Shown one piece after another: positions 56,824 to 62,263 of a DNA stretch of 64,000 nt. Positions within the stretch are counted from its first letter, which is position 1; the number at the start of each line of letters is the position of its first letter. This DNA comes from Chloropicon primus (lineage: Eukaryota; Chlorophyta; Chloropicophyceae; Chloropicales; Chloropicaceae). Both the position numbers and the translations under genes were made by a program. Below the pieces are notes generated by a model. It did no database searches, was not told where the DNA came from, and saw only the letters and a list, made by a program, of their open reading frames with translations. Location: the NCBI GenBank assembly GCA_023205875.1, contig CP060766.1, positions 186,001 through 250,000 of the forward strand, written 5' to 3'.

Positions 56824-56965
56824 GGACCAAGACAAAGAAATGAATGGATCCGCCACTTGCTTTGTAACGCACGCGGCGGCCTCATGCCGGCGGCAACGAC
56901 GACGACGACGATGATATAAGAATAAGAACAATAATGGCTCAAAGACCAAAAATTGACATTTGTTA
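56824..56965. repeat. Direct repeat, copy 2 (3' flank of SF1)
   Basis: Partner of 54699-54836. It lies immediately downstream of the SF1 stop, as copy 1 lies downstream of the HARE-HTH stop, so the two minus-strand genes share a 3' flank. Confidence 0.75.
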
Positions 56966-58816
56966 CCCTATGTCGTTCATGAACTTGGCGTACTCGTCCT
57001 CCATCTTTTCTGCCGTTGGCGGTGGTGGCGGTGCTTGCTGTTGTGCGGGCGGCGGTGGGGGTGGGGCGTCCTCCTCCTCCGGTGGCGGCGGAGGGGGCGG
57101 GGGTGGAGCCATGCTTCCCGGGTCGGCGGGGTAGCCTTGCCAGCCCTGGTCCTGGTAACCCATTCCCATGCCGCCCATACCACCCTGGTCATAATAACCT
57201 CCTTGTCCATAATAACCTCCCGCTGGCGCGCCCATCTGGTGGTTGTATTCCGCAGCTCCGGACGGAAGGTGCTGCTCGGCGGGGTGCCCGCCGTGCATCG
57301 GCCCTTGCTGCTGGTACATGCCGCCGTGCTGGGGCCGCATGAATTGGCCTCGGCCGCGAGGCTCGGGCCCGCCTCTGTTGAACTGCTGCGGAGGTGGTCT
57401 GGAACTGCGGGGAGGAGGGCCCTTCTGCCCTGCAACCCGCACCGCGAGCCTCCTCCCATCGATCTGGTACCCGTCCAAGTTCTCCACAGCGGCCTTTGCC
57501 GCCTCCTTGTCCCCAAACTTCACAAACCCAAACCCCCTGGATTCGCCCGTCACTTTGTCGGTAATGATCTTCGCTTCCTGCACTCCACCATACGTCTCAA
57601 ACAACGAGTGCAGGTCTGGCTCCCTCATGCTCCTCGGGATGTAGCCCACGTACAGGTTGGACTCGTCGATTTCTCTCTCTCCCCCCGGGCCCCTGTCCCC
57701 ACCTCGATATCCGAGGCCCGGACCGGGGCCTCCTCCTCCTCCTCCTCCCATTCCCCTTCCGCGGCCCAGAGGCGTCAAGTTAGGGTTGCCAGAAGACGGC
57801 TTCGGCCTCTCCTGCGTCCTGCCACCAACCTCGTCCAAGAAGTTCTGGTACTCGTTGTCCAGCTTGGAGGGGTCCTCGCCCGTAAATCTGGCCACGTCCT
57901 TCTTGTACAAGTCATCAACCTGCGCTTTGACTTGGTCAGACAGCTTGTACACATCCGTTGCCGCTTCCTCCTCCCTTCGCTTCTGCCAGAAGTCCTCGCT
58001 CCTCAGGGTGCCGTTCAGCTCCGCGAGCTCCCTCAGCTGCATCCTCTTGTGCTGGTTCCTCGACTCGTCCACGGGCACAAGGAGTTGCTCGACCATGGCC
58101 ACGGCCTTGTCCAGACCCTCCTGGTTGTCGCAAGTGACCACCACGTGGAGCTCCTCATTCTCCGTCGGATCGTGCCTCCCCTGCAAAGCGTTCTGGTTCG
58201 TCCTCCCCTCCTTCACACTTCCCTTCCCCCTCAGGGCGATCTTCGCACCAGTCTCGCGCTCCATGCGCTTCTGGGTGTTCCCCCTGGGCCCAATGATCAG
58301 CCCAATAAAGTTGTATCCGGGGTACTCGCGCGTCGGCACGAAGAGCTTCTTGCTCAGCTTCTCCCGCCTGTAGTCTGAAGGCGGCTTGAAGTTGGAGCTC
58401 TGCACCAGCTTCCCAATGAGGTCCTGCCTCTCCTTCAGAAGCCCCTGCTTGATCCTCTCCTCCCTCGTGTTGGTTCGCTTGCCACTCGCGTCGTACTCTG
58501 GCGGAGGCGAGGGCGACCGCTCACTCGCTGGCCTCCTGTCCGCAAAGTCGTTCGAGTTCAACCGCTTGTTCACCTCGTCCAGCCTCTCGTTCAGCAGGGC
58601 GCCCTCATCGTACCCCGCACCAGGGACAACGAGAGCCCTCGTGTTCTGCTGGATGATCCCCGCCAAGCTCGGCGGGATCACGACCTGCTTCCCCCCTCCC
58701 GTCGCCACCGCCGTCGCCGGCGGACCGGCATCGGCCGGAGCCCACCTGCTCTTGCGCTTCCTGCCGCGCCTCTCCCCGCCGCCCGAGTCCCACCTCGGCC
58801 CCTCGGATGAACCCAT
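56963..58816 (-). CDS. SF1: Splicing factor 1 / branchpoint-binding protein, with an RRM and no zinc knuckle
   Basis: 617 residues, intronless. SF1 recognises the intron branchpoint and partners U2AF. Visible order: UHM-ligand motif RKRKSRW (about 18-24), which binds U2AF large subunit; helix-hairpin domain ([13 protein letters not shown] and following); KH-QUA2 domain ([33 protein letters not shown]); a helical stretch where the zinc knuckle normally sits, then [14 protein letters not shown] (the SF1 'DxEYxxxMxExG' block); an RRM ([29 protein letters not shown]); and a G/Q/Y/P-rich tail. No CX2CX4HX4C motif exists. The C-terminal RRM resembles plant SF1 proteins. Confidence 0.92.
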
Positions 58817-58912
58817 ACCTCAACCAAACACCCTGCTCCGCTCGCCCAAGCCTTCTCTTCGCCTCACACGGCGACACGCGGCGTCGATCCTCGTAACACC
58901 CGTCGAGTGACC

Positions 58913-59390: not shown

Positions 59391-59502
59391 TTACTTGACT
59401 TGGTTTTCTCTCTCCTTCCACTTGGTTTTGTGGAACTGAAACGTTTTCACTCAGGAGAGAGGATTGAGAGATTGTATATTGCATTATCGTTTATCATTTA
59501 TC

Positions 59503-60595
59503 ATGTTGAGGAGGGTTTGTGTTCAGGCTCCCGTCGTCAGGAGGTGCCTCGCGACGCTTTCGAGCAAGACCTTCACCTCCACGACCTTGACACCTTGCGA
59601 GAGGAAGCAGAACCAGAACCAGGTGAGAGGCCGTGCCCCCCTTGGAGGGAGGAGACGGAAACCATTTGAAGCTCTCCGTCTCTCTCTCTGTCTCTCTCTC
59701 TCTGTCTCTGTCTCCTCGCGTGTCCGTCTGAGGTTTGGCAATGTGCTGACTTGTCTGTTTTGTTGGCTTCAGTCCGTTGCAAGGAATGGGAATAACACGG
59801 CAGCGTGGGTGAGAGATTATAGAGCCACGGTGTTCGCGGCCAGCAGCGTAACCATAGGTGTGCCGAACATGGGCGACTCGATTACAGAAGGGGAGATTGC
59901 AGCGATCATTAAGGCGCCAGGTAAGGCCCACGTGTCCGTGCCAGAGATAGAGGGAAGAGACCCTTTGGTCAGTGTTCGCTGCGCAGCGAGAGGGAGAGTA
60001 GTGCTGACCGGAACCGTTTCTCTCTTGACCACTGCTAGGTGACGCTGTTGCGGAGGACGAGGTTGTCGTCCAGGTCGAGACCGACAAGGTGACGATCGAT
60101 ATCCGATCTCCAGGCTCAGGAGTCGTGGAGGAGATCATGGTCGCCGAGTCGGACACCGTGGTGGTTGGCCAAGCGGTGGCCAAGGTGAGCCTGGGAGCCA
60201 CGGCGGAAGCTTCTGGTGCGGCAACGACCGCCGCAGCGGTGGAGGAGACTCCCCAGGTCGTGGAAGAGGTCGTGGTCGAGGCAGCCTCCGTCGCTTCGGC
60301 TTCCGATGCAGCGGACCACGACGCCAGGGTTCCTCTGATTCACTTTCCAAAGAGGAGGACGGAGGCTGGAGAGTGCATAAGCATGCTCTCCGCGGAAGAC
60401 AGGGCGAAGCTCGGCCTCTCTGGTGGCGCTGCCGTGGCGGAGCCCCAATTCAAGGGCCTCATCATCACGGCATCTAACCCAACCAGCGACCCTTCCTGGA
60501 GGAACTACAAGCCAAATTATGACGACCACCTTCGAAGGAGGGCCATCTCAGAGAGGGAGATAGAAAGCATCATGCTTGGAGGTGCCACAGACTGA
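59503..60595 (+). CDS. Mitochondrial lipoyl-domain protein fused to KGD4/MRPS36-like motifs
   Basis: Exons 59503..59622, 59773..59920 and 60039..60595, 274 residues. Residues 1-40 are a mitochondrial presequence (MLRRVCVQAPVVRRCLATLS). Residues about 65-142 form a 2-oxoglutarate-dehydrogenase-type lipoyl domain: VPNMGDSITEGEIAAIIKAP, GDAVAEDEVVVQ and VETDKVTIDI with the lipoyl lysine at about 106. An Ala/Glu/Val linker follows. The C-terminus has PLIHFPKRR (about 188-196), matching the E3-binding PLIRFPDRR of human MRPS36/KGD4, and YDDHLRRRAISEREIESIML, GGATD, matching its YRRKLVSQEEMEFIQRGG end that binds the E2 core. There is no peripheral-subunit-binding domain and no E2 catalytic HxxxD motif. 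I infer an E3 adaptor that also carries a swinging lipoyl arm. Confidence 0.88.
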
Positions 60596-60818: not shown

Positions 60819-61220
60819 TCAGGCAGACGTCGACGTCTCCTCCACTTTTGTGGTGACCTCCTCATTGCTGACACTGCTGCAGCAACTGGTTGAAGCTGCT
60901 GTAACAAAGTCCGAGTACGATGCACCCATCCCACACCCCAAGCCAAAGGTGAAGACGGAGGCTCGAGAGCAAGGCCGTCCTGATCACAGGCACACACACA
61001 CAATCAATATCAATATCAATATCAATATCGATGCAGAGAGAGAGAGGAGGTTGTCAGTATATGATGGTGTTGGTGTTCGAATGGAGGAAGTGGATTTTCG
61101 AGTGCAATTGTACTCACTGAACAGAAGAAGAGCAGCCGAAGCTCCTGCAAGTGCCCCGTAGATCCCTCTCCTCACCACACTCTCCACCACCTTGTCACAG
61201 TCACACTCCTGCTGGCCCAT
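60819..61220 (-). CDS. MIC10: MICOS subunit MIC10
   Basis: Exons 61118..61220 and 60819..60979 (minus), 87 residues. The donor (TTCA|GTGAGT) and acceptor (gatcAG|GACGG) join in phase 1. The protein begins MGQQECDCDKVVESVVRRGI and has two hydrophobic hairpin segments with glycine motifs, as in MIC10: GIYGALAGASAALLLF, a basic turn (RRPCSR), and VFTFGLGCGMGASYSDF, which parallels human LAFGSGMGLGMAYSNC. MIC10 bends the inner membrane at crista junctions by oligomerising through these glycines. A short Ser/Thr-rich tail follows. It is not visible as one open frame. Convergent with the lipoyl-KGD4 gene and divergent from PPCDC. Confidence 0.85.
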
Positions 61221-61291: not shown

Positions 61292-61561
61292 GCGAAGGGT
61301 CTAACGAAAGATCAAGAGACGTGGAATGGTATGCTGCCGCTCTCCTCCCCTTCTCTTCCCCACCTCGTCCTCGAAATCCTCGCGATCCTTCGGCAAGTGC
61401 GACCACTCGACGCGCCAGCTGCTCACTTCTTTTGGAGGGGAGACGCCAGCGAGGGAGAGAAGAGCTTTGCGGAGGAAGTGGACGACGAGGAGGACGACGG
61501 AGTGAGGAGGAGCCTCCAGGAAACGAGAGATCATCTCGCGATCTTTCGTTAGACCCTTCGC
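61292..61561. repeat. 270-bp element bounded by 22-bp perfect inverted repeats
   Basis: GCGAAGGGTCTAACGAAAG plus ATC at 61292-61313 is the exact reverse complement of 61540-61561. The arms contain the ACGAAAGATC form of the promoter motif, and the inner side of the right arm has CTCGCG. It occupies the MIC10/PPCDC divergent gap, with the arms 72 bp from the MIC10 ATG and 85 bp from the PPCDC ATG. Confidence 0.85.
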
Positions 61562-61645
61562 TTGACTCCATCGAGTCACGACGTCCATGGATGGTTCGCA
61601 TCAGTTGGATGGGTCCAAGGGAAGGATAGTTTGGACGAGTGGGTG

Positions 61646-62263
61646 ATGAACGTTTTAGTCGCTGCAACTGGCAGCGTAGCGAGCGTGAAGGTTCCAGAAC
61701 TCGTGGAAGAGTTTGTCTCACGAGGTAATCGTGTCCGGGTGATCCTGAGCGAGACGGCATGCCACTTTGTCACCAAGCAGGAGCTCGTGGACCACTTCGA
61801 GAAGCGGCCTACCGAGCTGTTTCATCCCACTGCGGACGTTTACTTGGAGGAGGACGAGTGGAAGACTTGGGGAAAGATGGGGGACCCCGTGCTTCACATT
61901 GAATTGGGCAAGTGGGCGCACGTTCTGGTGATTGCTCCCCTGTCTGCGAACACTCTTGCGAAGATGGTGAACGGATTGTGTGACAACTTGATCACCAGCG
62001 TGGCGAGGGCGTGGGACTACTGTCACGGGCCCGTGGTTGCGGCACCAGCGATGAACACGAGAATGTGGACCCACCCGGTGACGAGCGATCACATAGAGAC
62101 CCTCAAGAGGAGGGATAAGATCCGGATCGTGGACCCCGTCGTGAAGGCCCTGGCTTGCAAAGATGTCGGGGTGGGTGCGATGGCGCCGGCCGGAGACGTC
62201 GCTGACGCTGCCCTCGACGCAATTCAAGAGGCAAGGGAGAGGCCCAAGAGCGACCAAAGGTAA
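61646..62263 (+). CDS. PPCDC: Phosphopantothenoylcysteine decarboxylase (coenzyme A synthesis)
   Basis: Flavoprotein converting 4'-phosphopantothenoylcysteine to 4'-phosphopantetheine. From the ATG at 61646, 205 residues. Diagnostic blocks: VAATGSVASVKVPELVEEFV (FMN-binding), DPVLHIELGKWAHVLVIAPL with the catalytic His, SANTLAKMVNGLCDNLITSV, PAMNTRMW, and CKDVGVGAMA with the active cysteine. The reading frame ends TAA inside an excellent splice-donor sequence (AAAG|GTAAGA), and a good acceptor (ttctgttgtAG) lies 80 bp on, so a 3' intron is possible. The 3' end approaches the oppositely oriented kelch gene within about 100 bp. Confidence 0.93.
   Translation: MNVLVAATGSVASVKVPELVEEFVSRGNRVRVILSETACHFVTKQELVDHFEKRPTELFHPTADVYLEEDEWKTWGKMGDPVLHIELGKWAHVLVIAPLSANTLAKMVNGLCDNLITSVARAWDYCHGPVVAAPAMNTRMWTHPVTSDHIETLKRRDKIRIVDPVVKALACKDVGVGAMAPAGDVADAALDAIQEARERPKSDQR

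Follow-up and report, generated by a model that had tools for sequence, protein, structure and literature searches.

A lipoyl domain of E2o type joined to KGD4/MRPS36-like blocks in the green alga Chloropicon primus: a possible E3 adaptor with its own arm

In bacteria, the E2 chain of the 2-oxoglutarate dehydrogenase complex (E2o) consists, in order, of a lipoyl arm, a linker, a peripheral-subunit-binding domain (PSBD), which is the E3 binder, and the core. KGD4 (MRPS36) is a small stand-alone protein without a lipoyl domain, of 103 amino acids in human and 123 in yeast. The PSBD is described as lost from eukaryotic E2o, with MRPS36 proposed in its place, and in mammals the N-terminus of KGD4/MRPS36 cross-links to E3 (dihydrolipoamide dehydrogenase) and its C-terminus to E2o (PMC9974300). 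Even this canonical role is debated, since the complex in lysates of human cells is reported to have become no more active when MRPS36 was added (Leandro et al., as cited in PMC8146983). In Chaetomium thermophilum, KGD4, termed E3BPo, is described as 'fused' at the N-terminal end of a database entry for holocytochrome c synthase (PMC10203282), which may only reflect annotation. The pyruvate complex has the mammalian E3-binding protein (E3BP, or protein X), described as an E2 paralogue with E2 domain topology (PMC10156792).

The window analysed here is a stretch of 64,000 nucleotides, bases 186001 to 250000 of contig 13 of Chloropicon primus, and the genome searched comprised 17,584,162 bases in 20 contigs. 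C. primus RCC138 is a tiny marine green alga with approximately 0.5 short introns per gene, and the G+C content of its genome is given as 57.44% (PMC12301720); that of the window is 56%. On the forward strand at window positions 59503 to 60595 lies a gene of three exons, referred to here as the LD-KGD4-like gene. It encodes 274 amino acids, arranged as a mitochondrial-type presequence, a lipoyl domain (LD), an Ala-rich linker, the block PLIHFPKRR and the C-terminal end RRRAISEREIESIMLGG. Exon 1 (59503 to 59622) holds the start codon and the presequence (residues 1 to 40, with E33 as its single acidic residue), exon 2 (59773 to 59920) the remaining presequence region and the start of the LD, and exon 3 (60039 to 60595) the remaining LD, the linker, the KGD4-like region and the stop codon TGA. 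Both introns are of the GT...AG type. Intron 1 (59623 to 59772; GTGAGAGG...TTCAG) has 150 bases, while intron 2 (59921 to 60038; GTAAGGCC...CTAG) has 118 and lies within the LD.

A lipoyl-domain gene and a neighbouring KGD4 gene might have been read as one by mistake. However, exon 3 is a single uninterrupted frame that starts within the LD, takes in both KGD4 blocks and ends at the stop, and the only methionines of the protein are at residues 1, 73, 123, 205 and 268. As there is no ATG between the LD and PLIHFPKRR, a separate KGD4 containing PLIHFPKRR cannot start there. Upstream of the start codon there is an in-frame TGA at 59437, with no in-frame ATG from there to 59503. The junction at intron 2 is supported by homology, because the spliced LD aligns without gaps to the LD of the genome's own E2o, whose frame is uninterrupted at that site. 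A gene-model artefact is thus highly improbable. The gene and its domain layout are real, and from the frame, the splice sites and the homology the LD and the KGD4-like part are predicted to share one mRNA. The first-pass annotation had read one spliced frame with a presequence, an LD with ETDK, a linker, PLIHFPKRR and a C-terminal block, and the open 274-residue frame bears this out.

Tail to tail with this gene, on the reverse strand, is a two-exon gene (60819 to 61220) with a DUF543 match (PF04418, 42.7 bits), a family which we take to be MIC10; the gene is thus MIC10-like. Further downstream, an open reading frame on the forward strand (61553 to 62263) matches the Flavoprotein family (PF02441, 115.2 bits) and is presumably a phosphopantothenoylcysteine decarboxylase of HAL3 type. 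On the other side, a long reverse-strand ORF (56963 to 58819) has KH-like, RRM-like and proline-rich stretches and by eye resembles the splicing factor SF1/BBP.

The lipoyl domain (59848 to 60184, residues 66/67 to 138) is of E2o type. Pfam Biotin_lipoyl (PF00364) matched residues 67 to 138 of the 274-residue protein with 59.6 bits (E 2.7e-16), the best NCBIfam match was sucB, the 2-oxoglutarate dehydrogenase E2, and the best match in the Protein Data Bank (PDB) was an E2o chain. The marks of such a domain, a Biotin_lipoyl match, the DK lysine and an E2o as nearest relative, are all present. K106 of ETDK (residues 103 to 106; codon at 60086 to 60088) is the candidate lipoyl-lysine. ETDK and its surroundings, DEVVVQVETDKVTIDIRSPG, are identical in the E2o paralogue of this genome, and K106 is predicted to be lipoylated. 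At E values up to 10 the full protein brought up four Pfam families, and neither the 2-oxoacid dehydrogenase catalytic domain (PF00198) nor the PSBD (PF02817) was one of them; the frame ends at 60595. The earlier reading of a full lipoyl domain that belongs to 2-oxoglutarate dehydrogenase and is not followed by an E2 catalytic domain therefore agrees with the profile matches.

Over the LD and the first linker residues, 67 of 85 positions are identical to those of the genome's E2o. Over these 67 codons for the same residue the third bases are alike in only 34 cases, and dN is 0.12, dS 1.33 and dN/dS 0.09 over 76 codons (from our own Nei-Gojobori script). Together these values indicate an old copy kept by selection. 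The linker, rich in Ala, Val and Glu (60185 to 60331, residues 139 to 187), is E2o-like as far as VEAAS (residues 169 to 173). The first introns of both genes are in phase 0, after QNQNQ in the LD-KGD4-like gene and after LQNQK in E2o, where exon 1 is our own prediction from the genomic letters. Intron 2 has no counterpart in E2o. The similarity of the linker up to VEAAS and the position of the phase-0 first intron suggest that the E2o gene was the donor, and the presequence, arm and linker are very probably derived from it. Most simply, the 5' segment of the E2o gene, which encodes presequence, arm and linker, would have been duplicated and fused to a KGD4 gene.

Alternatively, the protein may be a KGD4 adaptor whose LD is structural, serving as an extra anchor on E1o or E3 or fixing stoichiometry, lipoylated or not, and standing outside turnover. 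An 'unloaded' lipoyl domain is said to be able to anchor peripheral subunits (PMC10203282), and E2o has arms of its own, so that a further one is not needed for catalysis. In contrast, the LD is under strong purifying selection and its lysine stands in unaltered surroundings, as expected of a substrate arm, and both points favour a working one. A purely structural LD is therefore considered unlikely, and we judge that the arm is probably active and lipoylated.

The C-terminal part of the protein carries two blocks in the order found in KGD4/MRPS36. The N-block, PLIHFPKRR (60332 to 60358, residues 188 to 196), matches the E3-binding end of KGD4/MRPS36, and the C-block, LRRRAISEREIESIMLGG (60530 to 60583, residues 254 to 271), matches the end that binds the E2o core. 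Sequences of human MRPS36 and yeast Kgd4 served as references. The N-block is identical at seven of nine positions to human PLIRFPDRR, while the likeness to yeast is weaker and confined to PLIHF/PMIKF. At the C-terminal end, RRRAISEREIESIMLGG aligns with human RRKLVSQEEMEFIQRGG and yeast RYKPINEHELESINSGG. Twelve columns are invariant in the window protein and the two reference sequences, and ten of these fall in the two blocks. The LD-KGD4-like protein contains the motif P[LM]I.F...R followed by R...[IV]...E.E.I..GG with no more than a few residues left before the stop, a pattern which was itself drawn from the two reference sequences and the window protein and so is not an independent definition. 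Residues 197 to 253, between the blocks, do not clearly resemble KGD4 of human or yeast.

These features leave room for a second view of the tail, in which its likeness to KGD4 is a chance or short-motif mimic and the protein a truncated E2o paralogue with some other tail, for example a regulator or a lipoyl carrier. Profile scores lend this view some weight. Kgd4-YMR31 (PF10937) was the sole Pfam family listed for the last 93 residues, with 13.9 bits, and the last 29 residues reached 16.0 bits at positions 97 to 116 of the 116 in the model. Both scores are below the curated cut-off of 22 bits, and a query with the full-length protein did not bring up PF10937 even at E values up to 10. Profile-profile comparison with hhalign gave a probability of 50.5% (E 1.6e-4) covering the C-block only. 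The middle region without clear similarity points the same way, and neither PF10937 nor human MRPS36 recovered the gene when used to search the genome. The weak N-block match to yeast counts against an adaptor. A structure prediction from the single sequence of exon 3 alone (residues 91 to 274) was uninformative, with a mean pLDDT of 34.9 and a pTM of 0.19.

However, human MRPS36 itself scored 25.8 bits on PF10937, merely 3.8 above the cut-off, compared with 104.9 bits for yeast Kgd4, and the model thus seems to lean towards fungi. Local alignment of the last 93 residues with the human reference gave a score of 62, which none of 5000 shuffles reached; for the yeast reference the score was 46, reached by three of 5000. 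When both blocks were scored in order, the human score was reached in none of 20000 shuffles and the yeast score in four. Among 3749 ORFs, those of the window and the fetched loci, the LD-KGD4-like frame ranked first with a yeast-plus-human profile, at an E value (0.0076; runner-up 0.055) which combines two matched stretches, the best single one having 0.58. A profile of the C-block likewise put it on top (E 0.0025; runner-up 0.16). The two blocks also stand in the correct order and at the correct C-terminal end; they are attached to an arm of E2o type, and the E2o of this genome has no PSBD match. A chance resemblance thus seems improbable, and the C-terminus is very likely homologous to KGD4/MRPS36. 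The KGD4 assignment made in the first-pass annotation is supported in part: the shuffle, motif and ranking tests favour it, while a significant match to the family profile, by which it was to be checked, was formally not obtained.

Other copies of KGD4 were sought in the same genome. The PF10937 profile gave no match, the LD-KGD4-like gene included, and is uninformative for this purpose since the 14 control genomes also gave none. Human MRPS36 did not recover the LD-KGD4-like gene; its lone genome match, at C15:415043-415294, is a different locus with an E value of 0.09 and 23% identity, runs across a TAG and was rejected. The last 93 residues matched only themselves. The pattern ExExIxxGG occurs at 18 places, with a KGD4-like context only at the LD-KGD4-like gene; by eye, the other 17 have none. 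The most suggestive of these, C20:201254 (EREEIKAGGEVP*), is by eye flanked by two ORFs, one of which looks like the terminal part of a ubiquitin protease, and C16:136120, the second of the two places with a stricter form of the pattern, is in a frame without KGD4 context. A motif-based search would miss copies that are divergent or spliced within ExExIxxGG, and this limited search suggests that the LD-KGD4-like gene may be the only KGD4 of the genome.

Relatives outside the genome were also sought. The last 93 residues had none in the virus and prokaryote collections viral_contigs and genome_contigs, nor did a query built from the three-sequence alignment (window, human and yeast) in genome_contigs. 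The PDB yielded no KGD4 chain when queried with the window C-terminus and the yeast and human sequences. Among the literature matches listed for KGD4, MRPS36 and E3-binding proteins there was no lipoyl-KGD4 fusion, and the 'KGD4..' strings returned from PMC4584976 are specimen numbers only. Such fusions may sit unremarked in eukaryote sequence databases. It is possible that the arrangement is ordinary in green algae, where KGD4 would generally be fused to an LD and filed under a lipoyl-domain name. The accounts of KGD4 in PMC9974300, PMC10203282, PMC7050145 and PMC8146983 deal with animals and fungi, which leaves room for this, while no such case appeared among the listed literature matches. 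We regard it as doubtful; it is in any case compatible with an E3 adaptor. Within the literature covered, an E3 adaptor of KGD4 type whose lipoyl arm stems from E2o would be a new variation on a known tether.

Five loci of the genome match the acyltransferase (E2) family. One, G000:C2:431538-432221 on contig 2, is the E2o (TIGR01347, 511 bits with a cut-off of 379), in which Pfam found only an LD and a catalytic domain. No PSBD match was obtained in this E2o, and the four PSBD matches of the genome all fall within the other four E2 genes. The first-pass annotation had proposed to look for this, and the result fits the account in PMC9974300, in which eukaryotic E2o has lost its PSBD. Two of the other E2 genes, G000:C1:307287-308018 and G000:C4:773403-774128, encode closely alike acyltransferases that by eye resemble the E2 of the mitochondrial pyruvate complex, with one lipoyl match in the C1 frame and two in the C4 frame. 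Five matches to Pyr_redox_dim are candidates for E3. Beside the one E2o there are two E1o-type genes (G000:C11:436431-436877 and G000:C17:215216-215656; PF16870, 159.7 and 144.8 bits), and each of the two E1o types might prefer a different lipoyl arm.

The best explanation, to which we give a rough probability of 0.58, is that the LD-KGD4-like protein is an E3 adaptor of the 2-oxoglutarate dehydrogenase complex with its own E2o-derived lipoyl arm. The adaptor function, taken by itself, is likely. The C-terminal block would dock on the E2o core and PLIHFPKRR would hold E3, while the N-terminal LD, on its Ala-rich linker, would swing to reach E1o, the active site of E2o and the adjacent tethered E3. 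From the N-terminus, the chain would thus present the arm, a linker of approximately 49 residues, the E3-binding block, a spacer of approximately 57 residues and the core-binding block. The fusion would restore, on a second, non-catalytic chain, the ancestral order of arm, linker, E3 binder and core anchor, with the KGD4 blocks standing in for the PSBD and the core domain. An arm next to E3 could be reoxidised nearby and be of use to E1o and E2o sites in its neighbourhood. The mitochondrial location, the binding of E3 and of the core and the catalytic use of the arm are predictions from the encoded protein.

Like KGD4/MRPS36, the LD-KGD4-like protein has the two conserved blocks of the ends, arranged in the same order and presumably with the same partners, and the C. 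primus genome likewise has an E2o without a PSBD match. It differs in that KGD4/MRPS36 stands alone and has no LD, whereas here an N-terminal lipoyl arm is present. With the E2o of its own genome it shares the LD, the linker and the position of the first intron, but the catalytic domain is found in E2o only. E3BP of the pyruvate complex is likewise a non-catalytic chain with a lipoyl arm, a linker, an E3 binder and a core anchor. However, E3BP has a PSBD and an inactive acyltransferase-like core, neither of which the LD-KGD4-like protein matches, its own elements being short KGD4-like blocks. E3BP also serves the pyruvate complex, while the LD-KGD4-like protein would belong to the 2-oxoglutarate complex. 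A third arrangement is that of PDB 5u25, a dihydrolipoamide dehydrogenase with an N-terminal LD, of which residues 12 to 127 of chain A are matched by the LD of the window protein (E 2.2e-5). There the arm is within the E3 chain itself, whereas in C. primus it would be on the adaptor. It is a more tentative suggestion, at slightly less than even odds, that the E2o order has been re-created in trans with a different E3-binding element, so that each tethered E3 has a dedicated arm. The protein would then be a counterpart of protein X by convergence, in a complex where the E3 tether known so far has no arm.

The means by which E3 is kept on the eukaryotic 2-oxoglutarate complex now that the PSBD is gone, and whether KGD4 has a direct role in this, are debated in PMC9974300 and PMC8146983. 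If the proposed reading is true, a natural fusion of the complex's own lipoyl arm with KGD4 would provide evidence of an independent, evolutionary kind for KGD4 as a component of this complex. The fusion also offers a ready construct for probing channelling from arm to E3. Again if true, a second 2-oxoacid dehydrogenase complex would have an armed subunit like protein X, made from other parts.
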